From contig CAMYNQ010000012.1 of NCBI GenBank assembly GCA_947259785.1, forward strand, positions 1-38,596: a DNA stretch of 38,596 nucleotides. Reading direction: 5' to 3'. Position numbers and translations under genes: made by a program. Source of the DNA: an uncultured Chromatiaceae bacterium (GTDB lineage Bacteria; Pseudomonadota; Gammaproteobacteria; Tenderiales; Tenderiaceae). The notes under the pieces were generated by a model. The model did no database searches. It worked only from the letters and a program-made list of their open reading frames with translations, and was not told where the DNA came from. Position 1 is the first letter of the stretch. Each line of letters starts with the position of its first letter. This document shows, piece by piece, positions 5,111-38,596 of this stretch.

Positions 5111-5479
5111 TCAATCTTCATTGATTGTTCGTCCCTGCTTGTGCACTACATCGGTACTTATAAGTTGTAGCGTTTTTTGTTGGCCGCGACTTTCAATCAG
5201 CACATTAAAAGGGTTAATGGCAAGCAATGTTGCGCCATTCACCCTTTCTCCAATTGCGACCTGTTTGCCATTGATGATTGCATAACTACGTCCTTTTGAA
5301 ATCAAGGTTGACTGCAATATCAACGGCTTGCGCTTGATCTTTTTAACGACCTTTTTTGGCGTTTGTTTATAACGGGTTGGATCAGGCAGGTCAGCGAAAG
5401 GATCAGCAGCAGAAACTTCCATCGGATAAATCAGGCTGAATGACAGCAAGGTGCAGAATAATGTAGTTTTAAATTTCAT
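5111..5479 (-). CDS. mshK: MshK-like periplasmic pilus assembly protein
   Basis: About 122 residues, with a cleavable signal peptide ending near EVSAADPF. A PDPTRY motif follows, then a basic linker, then a compact beta domain with LISKGRSYAIINGKQVAIGE and a final VHKQGRTIN segment. The pattern DPTR plus an 'IINGQxVxxGD' strand is typical of MshK and of the PilP/GspC homology region, which contacts the secretin. The ATG at 5479 overlaps the mshJ stop (ATGA); a further ATG at 5491 is possible but gives a poorer signal peptide. Placed between mshJ and mshL, as in other MSHA loci. Confidence 0.8.
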   Translation of the reverse strand: MKFKTTLFCTLLSFSLIYPMEVSAADPFADLPDPTRYKQTPKKVVKKIKRKPLILQSTLISKGRSYAIINGKQVAIGERVNGATLLAINPFNVLIESRGQQKTLQLISTDVVHKQGRTINED

Positions 5480-6207
5480 AATCCCATCCACGCTTTGTCA
5501 GGACTCAAGGTGTAGATCATCAGCGTGGCGACCGATTCATTGTTGTTATTGGTTGTCAGGCTGACTCCGTCCCAGAGTATGTTCCAAGGTAGTTTTTCAA
5601 GCGCAGCAAGAAATGAAACCAGCTCACGGTAGCGGCCTTTTACTTCGAGTTGCATACCGTGTTGATAGATTGTGAATTCATCCTTGATTATGCTGGTTGT
5701 GTTTTTTTCAGTAGATATTTTTTCTTCAGCTTCTTTTTCAGTTTCAGCTTCTTTTTCAGGATCAGGCCAGAGCTGGGTGGCAGGCATGTTTTTGACCTTT
5801 ACAACGCTTAAACGCTTATTGCTGCTTAATACATCCTCAACAAAGCGGATCATCTCACGCGGGCTAATCAGATCGTTCATTAACTCAGAGAACTCACCAG
5901 TGCTATTGAGTTCTTGCTTTAAAGACGCCAGTCGGGCCAGGGCCGATTCCCTAGGTTGCTGCCGCAGCTTTTCAGTTAAGAAGACTAACTCTTGGTTGAG
6001 TAATTCTTTTTCGGCTTGTTTGGTTAAAATTATGGTCTGTATTGAACTGTTTGCTTTTTCCATAGGTGAAAAAAGAGAAAGAAATAACAGCAAAAAAAAT
6101 GCCAGGCTTATGGTGACGAAGATTAAAACGCGTTCGGTTTTTGGTCTGCCATCCAACAGTTCAACCAGCTGTAAAATTTTGGGTTGAAGATTGCTTATAA
6201 GCTTCAT
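5476..6207 (-). CDS. mshJ: MshJ, PilO-like inner-membrane alignment protein
   Basis: A 243-residue bitopic protein with one membrane helix (about residues 28-46), a coiled-coil region and a C-terminal ferredoxin-like fold, the PilO/GspM-type layout. It would pair with the PilN-like product of the preceding gene, whose stop it overlaps by four bases. A very acidic linker (EKEAETEKEAEEK) sits between the coiled coil and the C-terminal domain; at DNA level it contains two copies of CAGCTTCTTTTTCAG, 18 bases apart (5727-5759), so it probably grew by duplication. The product is needed in related systems for pilus assembly. Confidence 0.82.
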   Translation of the reverse strand: MKLISNLQPKILQLVELLDGRPKTERVLIFVTISLAFFLLLFLSLFSPMEKANSSIQTIILTKQAEKELLNQELVFLTEKLRQQPRESALARLASLKQELNSTGEFSELMNDLISPREMIRFVEDVLSSNKRLSVVKVKNMPATQLWPDPEKEAETEKEAEEKISTEKNTTSIIKDEFTIYQHGMQLEVKGRYRELVSFLAALEKLPWNILWDGVSLTTNNNNESVATLMIYTLSPDKAWMGL

Positions 6208-6830
6208 AAAATATACTCGGGATTTGTTGCCGTGGATATTTTGAAATCAATATACTCTGCGCGAGTATTGTTATTCTCATCTTCAATGGGCCTGTCGAGT
6301 TCAAAGTCAGATAAATCCGTGCCGGACAATAAGGGCTCTACGGAAAGTTTTTCCAGATAACTGGGCACCAGGTGGGCTGCAGTGGCCTGACCTTTTAATA
6401 TCAGGTCTCGGCCAGCGCGAGCTAGAGTGACGTCGGTAATCCATACCCCAGCAATATGCTGTCGGGCAAAGGCGACAAAATAACCTGAAAACCCCTCACC
6501 GCTACCAAACATGTCTGCTTTTAACTTGTCATGGATCCCTTTTCTATTGGCTAGCAGGTGTTCGATCTTTCGGATCTCATCGTTGATATCAAGACCTGCA
6601 TACTTGGCTAATTGTTGTGAGATCTCGTCGTGCTTCGATCTGATAACAGTTTTTTGCTGATCGATTTCTGCAATCTTATTTTCCAGGTAATAATATTGTC
6701 CTACTAAAACGCCGCTGTAGATAATGTGACCAATCACCACCAACAAGATAGCCACAAGCACATGTCTTCCGCCAAAACTTAACTCATGGCTTTTTTGGGC
6801 TGGTTGATAGAGATTAATTTGCTGCGGCAT
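6204..6830 (-). CDS. mshI2: PilN-like MSHA biogenesis protein (MshI2 type)
   Basis: A bitopic inner-membrane protein of about 208 residues. The short cytoplasmic N-terminus carries PQQINLYQP, the conserved PilN 'INLL/INLY' motif that docks onto the PilM-like partner. A membrane helix follows (about residues 27-50), then a coiled coil and a PilN-like periplasmic domain. The ATG at 6830 has AGGA six bases upstream; the ATG one codon earlier is also possible. It overlaps the 3' end of the PilM-like gene and the start of mshJ, so the three are one coupled unit equivalent to PilM/N/O. The symbol follows naming in other MSHA loci and is less certain than the family. Confidence 0.82.
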   Translation of the reverse strand: MPQQINLYQPAQKSHELSFGGRHVLVAILLVVIGHIIYSGVLVGQYYYLENKIAEIDQQKTVIRSKHDEISQQLAKYAGLDINDEIRKIEHLLANRKGIHDKLKADMFGSGEGFSGYFVAFARQHIAGVWITDVTLARAGRDLILKGQATAAHLVPSYLEKLSVEPLLSGTDLSDFELDRPIEDENNNTRAEYIDFKISTATNPEYIL

Positions 6831-35469: not shown

Positions 35470-36027
35470 TTACCAAGTCCAGTTGCCGTGTCCTGGAATG
35501 ATAACAGTGTCATCATCGTAGTTGCCTTTGTCAGCCATTTGGTGGCACTTGTCGCAATAACTAAGTGATTTAACTTTTGGATTGTCCTTGATGAGTTTGG
35601 CTGGAATTTCATGATGCGCTTTTTTGATGTAAGGTGTTTCAATTATGCGCATAGGGGTTTTGTCGTCACGTAGTGAGGCCATGATTTTTTTTGAACGTTT
35701 ATAATAAGATTTATCGGCAGAGGCTTTCACCAGAACGCCAAGAATATGTGTGCGAACATCTTCTTCCAATTCGGCATTGTCGCCAAAATGATCTTCAAGT
35801 GCTTTGGTATCCATTAGTTTTTGCCATGAGCCTTCTGGCAGAAGTCCAGGTTGATAGGCGAAATGGCATGAGCCACACTCTTCGAGGTAGTCTTTGTTCG
35901 TAACTGTAGCAACTTCATTGTGGCGCTTCAGCGAAAAGAATGATGAAAAAAATCCGTCGCCGGCGTAACTGCTCATGCTGCTAAGGCCAAGGGCAAGTGT
36001 TGCGCTAATCAATAATAAATTCTTCAT
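35470..36027 (-). CDS. DHC, diheme cytochrome c
   Basis: About 185 residues, with a signal peptide (MKNLLLISATLALGLSSM to SYAG). The two haem-c sites are EECGSCH followed by FAYQPGLLPEGSWQ, and YCDKCH. The GSCHxAYxPGLLP pattern is specific to the DHC family, the known electron donor to SHP. It is the last gene of the cluster. ATG 36027 is preferred: it gives a normal signal peptide and lies ten bases after AAGGA, while an earlier ATG at 36033 is too close to it. Confidence 0.92.
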   Translation of the reverse strand: MKNLLLISATLALGLSSMSSYAGDGFFSSFFSLKRHNEVATVTNKDYLEECGSCHFAYQPGLLPEGSWQKLMDTKALEDHFGDNAELEEDVRTHILGVLVKASADKSYYKRSKKIMASLRDDKTPMRIIETPYIKKAHHEIPAKLIKDNPKVKSLSYCDKCHQMADKGNYDDDTVIIPGHGNWTW

Positions 36028-36041
36028 GTTGTCCATGTCCT

Positions 36042-36431
36042 TTAGAATTGAATCAGGTATTTGATTAAGTCGCCTTTTTCCTGGTTGGTGCATTCACGCC
36101 CGACGGTCCATTTGCAATTACGTTTAAACCATTTTTTAATTTTTTTCAGTTTTGTAAAACGTTCTGCGTTAGCCGACTGGGCCAGAGGGTCAATAACTTT
36201 TTTGGTTTTGACGTGCTCACCGGACTTGGTTAGATCGTCGCCGTGGCAGGTTCTGCATTGGCGGATCTTGCCGTCTTCAGCGGTATGTTTTTGGTTCCAT
36301 AATTGCTTGCCGCGCTCGGCATCAAAAGCAGCTTCGCCATCAGGGCTGTAGTATTTATATACCTCATCAATGGTAATGGCCTGTGTTGGTAACGACAGGC
36401 TAAGCAGGGCAATTAATAAATATTTTTTCAT
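36042..36431 (-). CDS. SHP (sphaeroides haem protein), DUF1924 cytochrome c
   Basis: About 129 residues, periplasmic. After a signal peptide (to PTQA), the single haem site is CRTCHGDD (Cys about 61 and 64, His 65). The motif IDPLAQSANAERFT contains the Asn expected as the unusual second haem ligand of SHP, and NCKWTVGREC provides the family disulfide. SHP binds O2 and NO at a haem whose Asn ligand leaves on reduction. ATG 36431 lies seven bases after AGAGG. Next to DHC, the classical pairing. Confidence 0.92.
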   Translation of the reverse strand: MKKYLLIALLSLSLPTQAITIDEVYKYYSPDGEAAFDAERGKQLWNQKHTAEDGKIRQCRTCHGDDLTKSGEHVKTKKVIDPLAQSANAERFTKLKKIKKWFKRNCKWTVGRECTNQEKGDLIKYLIQF

Positions 36432-36452
36432 GGCCATACCTCTAATATTTTT

Positions 36453-36968
36453 TTACCAAACCATTTTTATGCCAATGGCCATGCTGACTGCGCCGCCGAC
36501 CCCCGGTCCCGCATGTCCTTCAGGTGCTTCGCCAACGGCAGTCAAAAAGCCCAGGGTGCCTAGCGTGGTCAGCGCCAGGTGAATGTTGTCAGGGTCGCTG
36601 AAGCCATTGCCTAAATCGATATCATCCCAATGGAAAATTAGTCCGGTAATGACTGCGCCGAAACCCAGCGCCGCAGCGGTTTGGCCTAAGGCTTCATGTG
36701 CGCCGTCTTCTTCTTTGGGCATAGCGGTGGTTAGTAAGGCAGCGCCCAGTGAGCCTATGCCCATATATTTATGCAATTTGTTGGCCGTGATCAGACGATC
36801 TTTATATACATTCTTATTTTCGGTTGTCATGCTGGTGTCGTCTGAACTGGCCAGCATCAATGGTTTGGCAGCGTTTGAGTTCCAATGATCAGGCAGCGAA
36901 AAATAACCGTCTGCAACAGCAGCCTGGCTGCTGAAAAGGGTAAGTGCAAGCGCACACTTTTTAATCAT
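36453..36968 (-). CDS. Four-helix membrane protein with haem-ligand-like histidines (b561-like?)
   Basis: A 171-residue protein with a short signal-type N-terminus (to AAVADG), a periplasmic stretch and about four hydrophobic helices. A His lies in or beside each helix: LHKYMGIGSLG (66), AHEALGQTAAALG (91) with GLIFHWDD (113), NIHLALTTLGTLG (130), and GHAGPGVGGAV (152). Such evenly placed His resembles cytochrome b561-type haem-b binding. It lies 15 bases upstream of shp in the same direction with AAGGAG as ribosome site. I could not match a named family with certainty; the electron-transfer role is inferred. Confidence 0.6.
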   Translation of the reverse strand: MIKKCALALTLFSSQAAVADGYFSLPDHWNSNAAKPLMLASSDDTSMTTENKNVYKDRLITANKLHKYMGIGSLGAALLTTAMPKEEDGAHEALGQTAAALGFGAVITGLIFHWDDIDLGNGFSDPDNIHLALTTLGTLGFLTAVGEAPEGHAGPGVGGAVSMAIGIKMVW

Positions 36969-37377: not shown

Positions 37378-37408
37378 AAAAAAGGCGACGCAGAAGCGCC
37401 GCCTTTTT
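37378..37408 (-). terminator. Intrinsic terminator of the Tim44-like gene
   Basis: On the minus strand AAAAAGGCGGCGC, loop TTCT, GCGTCGCC, then six T. The stem has one mismatch. It starts 21 bases after the stop codon. Confidence 0.8.
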
Positions 37409-37428: not shown

Positions 37429-38334
37429 TTAGCCTTGAACCTGCTGGATGCCATCCAAAAACCAGGTTGTCTGCTGGCTGTTGGCAGGTTTAATAAAGTG
37501 CCAAACTTCTTCAATACAGTGCGAGGTATCATCCTCTGTCAATTCAGCCCTGAACAACACAATGGCTTCCTGTTTTGAGCCCAGGTCATTACTGCTCAGC
37601 AGCTCGGCGTCCAGCGAGACGATCTCGGTTTTGCCGTGGCTTTCGCCGGCTTGATACTGGTCCTGAATTTCGGCAAAGACATGGTCTGTGGTGAACTGGC
37701 GAATATCGCTCAAGTCGCCTTCGTTCCAGGCCTGTTGCAGGCGGGAAAAACAGTTTTTGGCGCCTTCGATAAAGGCTTCTTGGTCAAATTGTTTGCTCGT
37801 AGCACTGCGCAAACTATCAATCGAGTTGCCCTCATCTGCATTATTATGGCCGCCAAATTGGTCGCTGGCTGTTTGGCGCTGTTGCTGGTTGTCGGCATCC
37901 CCCAGATCAGTCGGGCCATAGCCGCCAGCCATGGCTGGTTGCTGTTGGCTGCGACGAGACATGAACTTAAACAGCAAAAAGATGATTAGGCCGATGATGA
38001 GGATGTCCATGAAATTGATTCCCTCAAAGGCTCCCCCCATAAACAGTGCGCCGAGTACGCCGCCCAGTGCCAGCGCCCCAAGCATGCCCATAACCCCGCC
38101 TCGTTGTGCTAGCTGCTGCTTGCGTGCGGTATTTTGCTGTTTAGCAGGCGAGGCCAGCTGATTCTGGGCAGAATTCTTGTTCATGGAGTTCTTTTTCAGC
38201 GGCTGGCTAAAGCTGAACTTACTACCAAAAGACTTGCCGCCACCCAGCCGTTTGGCCTCGGCGACATCCATGCCGCTAACCAATAACGTGGTACTGGCAA
38301 GCAAAATGGTAAAAAAACTAAATAGCGACTTCAT
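37429..38334 (-). CDS. Tim44-like domain membrane protein
   Basis: About 301 residues. There is a signal peptide (MKSLFSFFTILLASTTLLVS to AEAK), a Gly/Gln-rich linker, then two adjacent hydrophobic stretches (MGMLGALALGGVLGALFMGG and FMDILIIGLIIFLLFKFM), then a soluble Tim44-like domain from about residue 185 (FIEGAKNCFSRLQQAWNEGD, LSDIRQFTTDHVFAEIQDQY). Bacterial Tim44-like proteins of this kind are common next to the membrane but have no firmly known function. ATG 38334 has GGGGAAC six bases before it; an earlier TTG is unlikely. Confidence 0.9.
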   Translation of the reverse strand: MKSLFSFFTILLASTTLLVSGMDVAEAKRLGGGKSFGSKFSFSQPLKKNSMNKNSAQNQLASPAKQQNTARKQQLAQRGGVMGMLGALALGGVLGALFMGGAFEGINFMDILIIGLIIFLLFKFMSRRSQQQPAMAGGYGPTDLGDADNQQQRQTASDQFGGHNNADEGNSIDSLRSATSKQFDQEAFIEGAKNCFSRLQQAWNEGDLSDIRQFTTDHVFAEIQDQYQAGESHGKTEIVSLDAELLSSNDLGSKQEAIVLFRAELTEDDTSHCIEEVWHFIKPANSQQTTWFLDGIQQVQG

Positions 38335-38490
38335 ACTGTTCCCCAACAAAATTAATCATGCGGGCGGCATTCTACATAAAAATGGCGCGAAATGCTTATT
38401 ACATAAAAATGTATCTATATTCGGTATTTAGGTAAGCGGCATGATTGATTGTGTATCAATAAGTTGTGGTTATTTTTAGTCTATGTTGAG

Positions 38491-38596
38491 CTTGGTGTTG
38501 TCTTGGTGTTGTCTTGGTGTTGTCTTGGTGTTGTCTTGGTGTTGTCTTGGTGTTGTCTTGGTGTTGTCTTGGTGTTGTCTTGGTGTTGTCTTGGTG
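38491..38596. repeat. 11-bp tandem repeat array reaching the window end
   Basis: At least 9.6 perfect copies of CTTGGTGTTGT with no variation. The array continues past the window edge, so the full copy number is unknown. It lies in AT-rich non-coding DNA beyond the Tim44-like gene. It has no spacers, so it is not CRISPR. Confidence 0.95.

Follow-up and report, generated by a model that had tools for sequence, protein, structure and literature searches.

A four-helix membrane protein with five invariant histidines accompanies one branch of dihaem cytochromes c in SHP operons

The protein that we call M4 supplements the known operon of an oxygen-binding cytochrome, whose usual membrane cytochrome remains, and it is inherited together with one branch of the soluble, periplasmic dihaem cytochromes c (DHC). 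We conclude that M4 would work like a cytochrome b561 core. We think it fairly probable that it is a small two-haem, bis-His b-type transmembrane carrier with the b561-core plan, dedicated to its one DHC branch and placed beside the cytochrome b of the operon (CytB).

We analysed a stretch of 38,596 bp (the window), which is the whole of contig G000:C12. The sequence-only reading had described three adjoining genes for SHP, DHC and a small membrane protein; all three are confirmed on the minus strand, SHP and DHC being secure by Pfam. The features of this region are as follows.

36453..36968, minus strand: M4, 171 aa, opening the unit; N-terminus signal-like, membrane core of four predicted helices with five invariant His
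36042..36437, minus strand: SHP (DUF1924), 131 aa, one CxxCH haem site; PF09086, E 1.3e-38
35470..36036, minus strand: DHC, 188-aa soluble dihaem cytochrome c of the M4-linked clade; PF09626, E 6.8e-35
37429..38349, minus strand: Tim44-like gene, PF04280, E 3.7e-15; between CytB/mDHC and M4
37379..37408, minus strand: terminator-like hairpin, 13 pairs and a T run, 3' of the Tim44-like gene; a consensus match only
38491..38596, no strand: 11-bp tandem repeat at the contig end

On the minus strand the order of transcription is M4, SHP, DHC, the genes standing 15 and 5 bp apart, and the DHC start is probably 36036 rather than 36093. In the alignment SHP retains the W-x3-N-C-x7-C motif (W103, N107, C108 and C116 are invariant), which belongs to the oxygen-binding type of SHP (PMC2909971), and the DHC translation contains two CxxCH sites, CGSCH and CDKCH. 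Since the hairpin at 37408-37379 lies between the Tim44-like gene and M4, M4-SHP-DHC is probably a single transcription unit of its own. The Tim44-like membrane protein gene, which sits between the CytB/mDHC fusion gene and M4 in the window's genus, has no known link to SHP.

Homologues of M4 comprise 56 distinct sequences from Gammaproteobacteria, Gallionellaceae, Nitrospirota and another class of Pseudomonadota. They were found in 11 of 144 relatives, in 14 of the 369 genomes of the class set and in 26 of 398 phylum genomes; 24 of these 26 belong to one family of another class, which we suspect to be Zetaproteobacteria. The 25 named contigs with M4, all from MAGs, include Chromatiaceae, Ectothiorhodospiraceae, Crenotrichaceae, Gallionellaceae, Nitrosomonadales and Nitrospirota. 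Core identity across the 56 homologues averages 45% (minimum 25%), and nine core positions are invariant in all of them: H66, G70, H91, H113, D116, D127, H130, H152 and M163. The five histidines among these are the only ones in the core of the window protein. Four well-placed histidines had been noted before; they are indeed well placed and invariant, but the core has five, and every one of the 56 homologues keeps all five. Homologues without the His had been named as a refuting case, and none turned up. Their codons are listed here with the corresponding b561 positions.

36771..36773, minus strand: H66, start of TM1, b561 H1; proposed outer-haem ligand; His in 56/56
36696..36698, minus strand: H91, start of TM2, b561 H2; proposed inner-haem ligand; His in 56/56
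36630..36632, minus strand: H113, end of TM2, b561 H2+22; His in 56/56
36579..36581, minus strand: H130, start of TM3, b561 H3; proposed outer-haem ligand; His in 56/56
36513..36515, minus strand: H152, start of TM4, b561 H4; proposed inner-haem ligand; His in 56/56

In one genome the intact M4 is preceded, about 2 kb upstream, by a short stretch that resembles M4 and contains a stop codon (G085:C2:39444-39548; loci L014 and L057), possibly a decayed second copy.

The signal sequence and roughly four helices that had been read from the letters are borne out by the signal-like N-terminus and by the AlphaFold2 model, which predicts core helices at residues 62-82, 90-116, 126-147 and 153-170 (core pLDDT 94.8, pTM 0.87). 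The signal-like segment ends in AVA-D, and an AxA motif is present in the expected stretch of 40 of the 56 M4 sequences. No His deviates by more than about 42 degrees from the conserved face of its own helix, and smaller residues line that face. Loop charges are uninformative, giving no positive-inside signal, so the topology rests on the signal-like N-terminus. Given an exported N-terminus, we infer from the model that H66, H113 and H130 would lie at periplasmic ends of the helices and H91 and H152 at cytoplasmic ends.

In eukaryotic cytochromes b561 each of four consecutive helices supplies one His ligand, H1 and H3 binding the outer haem and H2 and H4 the inner haem; the b561 core of CYBDOM proteins corresponds to TM1-TM4 (PMC10691727). 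Eukaryotic b561 and CYBDOM proteins (PF03188; 4O6Y, 5ZLE) resemble M4 in having four consecutive helices, each with a His close to its start. The first core helix of CYBDOM proteins is entered from the outside (periplasmic) face, as it would be in M4. The four-His arrangement is found throughout the M4 family: H66, H91, H130 and H152 stand one per predicted helix in 56/56, with predicted sidedness. The fifth histidine, H113, falls exactly at b561 position H2+22 in 56/56, a feature of the Dcytb-like subgroup; this position is the propionate/metal-site His of plant b561 (AtCytb561-B) and human Dcytb (PMC10691727).

Small residues at H1+7 and H4+4 have been reported in 106 eukaryotic b561 members (PMC10691727). 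Taking published b561 positions as fixed predictions, we find in the 56 M4 sequences that small residues (G/A/S) occupy H1+7 in 93%, H2+14 in 93%, H3+18 in 96% and H3+4 in 79%, and that H4+4 is Gly in 54/56, whereas H1+13 (14%) and H4+18 (4%) are seldom small. Taken as a set, six haem- or packing-related positions are small in M4 in five of six cases (p about 0.003, sliding within helices), a value that is only indicative because the set was picked after reading PMC10691727 and leaves out H4+18.

Other features separate M4 from eukaryotic b561. Most or all homologues have other residues in place of the b561 Arg H1+20 and Gln H3+14; the basic residues that bind ascorbate in b561, at H2-7, H2-3 and H4-7, are replaced as well, with Lys at H2-3 in only 9/56. 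M4 in turn has an invariant Asp at both H2+25 and H3-3 and an invariant Met at H4+11, which distinguish it from b561. M4 scores below the Pfam cut-off, its core and loops are shorter, it has no helices beyond the core, and its partner is a soluble dihaem cytochrome c, unlike that of eukaryotic b561.

Pfam and NCBIfam scans of the window M4 gave no match, and other members produced sub-threshold noise only; when PDB sequences were searched with M4, either as a single sequence or as a profile, no hit appeared at E values up to 10. Against PF03188, the highest-scoring M4 member is L082, with 17.8 bits where the curated cut-off is 23 bits. The helix register is shifted in these sub-threshold matches, and we therefore do not count them as evidence of homology. 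Two members have DUF4079 (PF13301) as a weak best match (best E 0.062), which is not significant and covers only two helices. Foldseek searches with the full and core models gave no match with E < 0.001. For the core, b561 structure 4o7g ranks second (TM 0.60, E 0.56) and its identity of 20% is the highest among the matches listed; COX3 (TM up to 0.69) or voltage-sensor bundles match at equal or higher TM-scores than 4o7g.

Aligned by hhalign with a b561 profile of just the two solved b561 sequences, M4 scores P 0.0055 (probability 6.6%), and H91, H113 and H130 are paired, unprompted, with their b561 counterparts. The control alignment was with the family of the operon's own CytB (PF01292, Ni-hydrogenase-type cytochrome b), which like M4 is a small multi-helix membrane protein with invariant His from the same operon; the two show no sequence relation (P 0.35), and the PF01292 profile gave no match to M4 members. 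A PF03188 search of the class genomes, meant to deepen the b561 profile with bacterial sequences, returned mostly weak matches whose translations look PF01292-like, and it was dropped. The third gene had been said not to read like a normal cytochrome b561 and perhaps to be unrecognised. Both statements hold: M4 is not of the PF01292 type, neither Pfam, NCBIfam nor the PDB sequences yield a match to it, Foldseek yields none that is significant, and our literature searches on SHP/DHC and on DUF1924 found no description of the gene among the papers covered. As the family is absent from the Pfam and NCBIfam models searched, its genes are probably annotated as hypothetical. Since neither Pfam nor Foldseek matches are significant, we describe M4 as b561-like in working rather than as a demonstrated member; judged from its sequence, it may be a distant b561 relative, with a predicted plan that is alike while family membership stays below significance.

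Some of the invariant residues could equally form a periplasmic metal site. M4 would then be a non-haem protein binding metal through H66, H113, H130, D116 and D127, and serve as an assembly factor, a metal carrier or a metal-dependent oxidoreductase for DHC/SHP. Three invariant His and two invariant Asp do come together at the predicted periplasmic ends of TM1-TM3, D116 and D127 are not b561 features, and in human Dcytb a metal ion is bound by the His at H2+22 (PMC10691727). However, such a site leaves unexplained H91 and H152, which are invariant at the opposite membrane face; haems better fit the small residues at haem positions and the b561 register, and all partners of M4 are redox cytochromes. 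We consider a purely non-haem role unlikely.

The genomic neighbourhood ties M4 to DHC. In the 25 named loci DHC always follows M4, with or without SHP between them, and in the 56 distinct loci it comes next or next but one after M4 in every case where the contig is long enough to show it (the automated count misses the DHC of L074 because stop-to-stop frames overlap, but the gene is seen in the named-locus survey). In the class set, a DHC match lies just downstream on the same strand in 14/14 M4 genomes. Five loci (L062, L063, L074, L079 and L133) have M4-DHC with neither SHP nor CytB nearby. Because some loci thus have M4-DHC and no SHP, the strict linkage is to the DHC branch and not to SHP. 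The stand-alone pair of L062 is preceded by an open frame of about 210 aa (5223-5855), which we guess to encode a 2-oxoglutarate/Fe(II)-dioxygenase. Beyond CytB, SHP and DHC, the neighbours at M4 loci are scattered housekeeping genes with no recurrent regulator. Absence of the gene from other SHP/DHC loci had been named as a point that would count against its being a partner; M4 proves to be a recurrent one.

In a tree of 100 DHCs, all 53 tested M4-linked DHCs fall into one clade of 54 rows (SH-aLRT 96), separate from CytB-fused DHC domains and from the DHCs of M4-less SHP loci. The split persists where both kinds of DHC occur in the same genome or locus (L064, G009, G046). The 54th member, in locus L098 (G003:C98, about 5877-6353), has a DHC frame without a signal peptide and no M4 was found for it in this MAG, which is 83% complete; it looks like a remnant after loss of M4. 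The window's genome has a third DHC (G000:C1:4053-4412, L103), which groups with the DHCs beside unlinked CytB of family f207. In the Gallionella-type loci L080, L081 and L082, a divergent SHP-DHC-CytB set is immediately followed by M4 and a second DHC, which belongs to the M4 clade.

The SHP operon as published contains CytB, one or two DHCs, SHP and regulators, and M4 is absent from the description (PMC2909971). M4 loci share with this operon of Meyer et al. (2010; PMC2909971) the W/N/Cys-Cys SHP, a soluble DHC and CytB or a CytB/mDHC fusion, but they differ in their distinct DHC clade and in that no recurrent regulator genes were seen adjoining them. The commonest order among the M4 relatives is CytB-M4-SHP-DHC, and in the 56 distinct loci CytB is directly upstream of M4 in 27, nearby in three and divergent in three (33/56 in total).

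The 27 loci with CytB immediately upstream suggest subunits of one complex. In that case M4 might bind a single haem and, in complex with CytB, tune or anchor the contact between CytB and DHC, with no electron path of its own. Against this stand the five M4-DHC units without CytB nearby, and genera with unlinked CytB keep M4 with SHP-DHC: in most genomes of genus g349 (family f207), M4-SHP-DHC has no adjacent CytB. We regard this arrangement as decidedly improbable.

In the window, too, no CytB adjoins M4-SHP-DHC, and the sequence-only reading had implied that the third gene takes the place of the usual cytochrome b and may complete an oxygen- or NO-responsive chain. The window ends in 9.6 copies of an 11-bp repeat (unit CTTGGTGTTGT), which separates the Tim44-like gene from CytB/mDHC. 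The final 121 bp of the window match bases 1-121 of contig C190 (L095) of the same genome exactly, and this contig encodes a CytB/mDHC fusion at C190:254-1456 on the minus strand, with matches to PF01292 and PF09626. In L058 (G006), a genome of the same genus, one contig holds CytB/mDHC, Tim44-like, M4, SHP and DHC in this order. Most likely the assembly was interrupted at the repeat, which put the CytB gene out of sight; the C12-C190 join rests on the overlap inside the repeat and on synteny with L058, with no spanning read. That cytochrome b seems to be replaced by a third gene is an artefact of the break, and since M4 and CytB are present together, M4 is an additional component.

Replacement of the canonical cytochrome, with electrons running from quinol through M4 and DHC to SHP, is accordingly very improbable: as in the window, the lack of an adjoining CytB in most g349 genomes would favour it, but it is contradicted for the window's genome by the CytB/mDHC just beyond the contig end, CytB normally accompanies M4, and the three g349 genomes examined retain an SHP-type CytB elsewhere, in two of the three beside a different DHC of its own. 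A structural, non-redox role as membrane anchor or biogenesis factor for its DHC would suit a protein without a family match or a demonstrated cofactor, but is scarcely credible, because the five invariant His face the interior of the four helices and are hard to explain without a cofactor.

In the accepted chain, electrons pass from quinol to CytB, then to DHC and SHP. To our knowledge SHP is the only c-type haem protein described as binding oxygen, and its physiological role is unsettled. As a two-haem carrier, M4 would hold an outer (periplasmic-side) haem by H66 (TM1) and H130 (TM3) and an inner (cytoplasmic-side) haem by H91 (TM2) and H152 (TM4), and the outer haem would be bordered on its periplasmic face by H113, D116 and D127. 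Judging from sequence and model, M4 would probably move electrons across the membrane to or from its DHC, linking the membrane (or its inner side) with DHC. The gene, its linkage, the DHC clade inherited with it, the invariant residues and the confident prediction of four helices are shown here, whereas that haem is bound, how its ligands pair, how M4 is oriented in the membrane and which way electrons flow are what we infer. Where SHP is present, DHC would pass the electrons onward to it, a step demonstrated in Rb. sphaeroides (PMC2909971). M4 would work alongside the operon's quinol-linked CytB without replacing it, and because CytB is also present it would be a second port, serving a different donor or acting as an outlet.

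Human Dcytb is a ferric reductase. By analogy with H2+22 of Dcytb, H113, D116 and D127 might form a periplasmic metal site by the outer haem; M4 might then found a bacterial family of minimal b561-like dihaem cytochromes feeding a co-evolved DHC, and the SHP operon would thus possess a second, metal- or non-quinol-linked port. As a whole, we rate this wider proposal as distinctly unlikely.

If the carrier reading is true, the SHP chain would have an extra electron source or sink, a further membrane cytochrome served by a DHC branch of its own, in several lineages including the Gallionellaceae, which are Fe(II) oxidisers. It would also extend a haem architecture like that of eukaryotic b561 to a compact bacterial protein.
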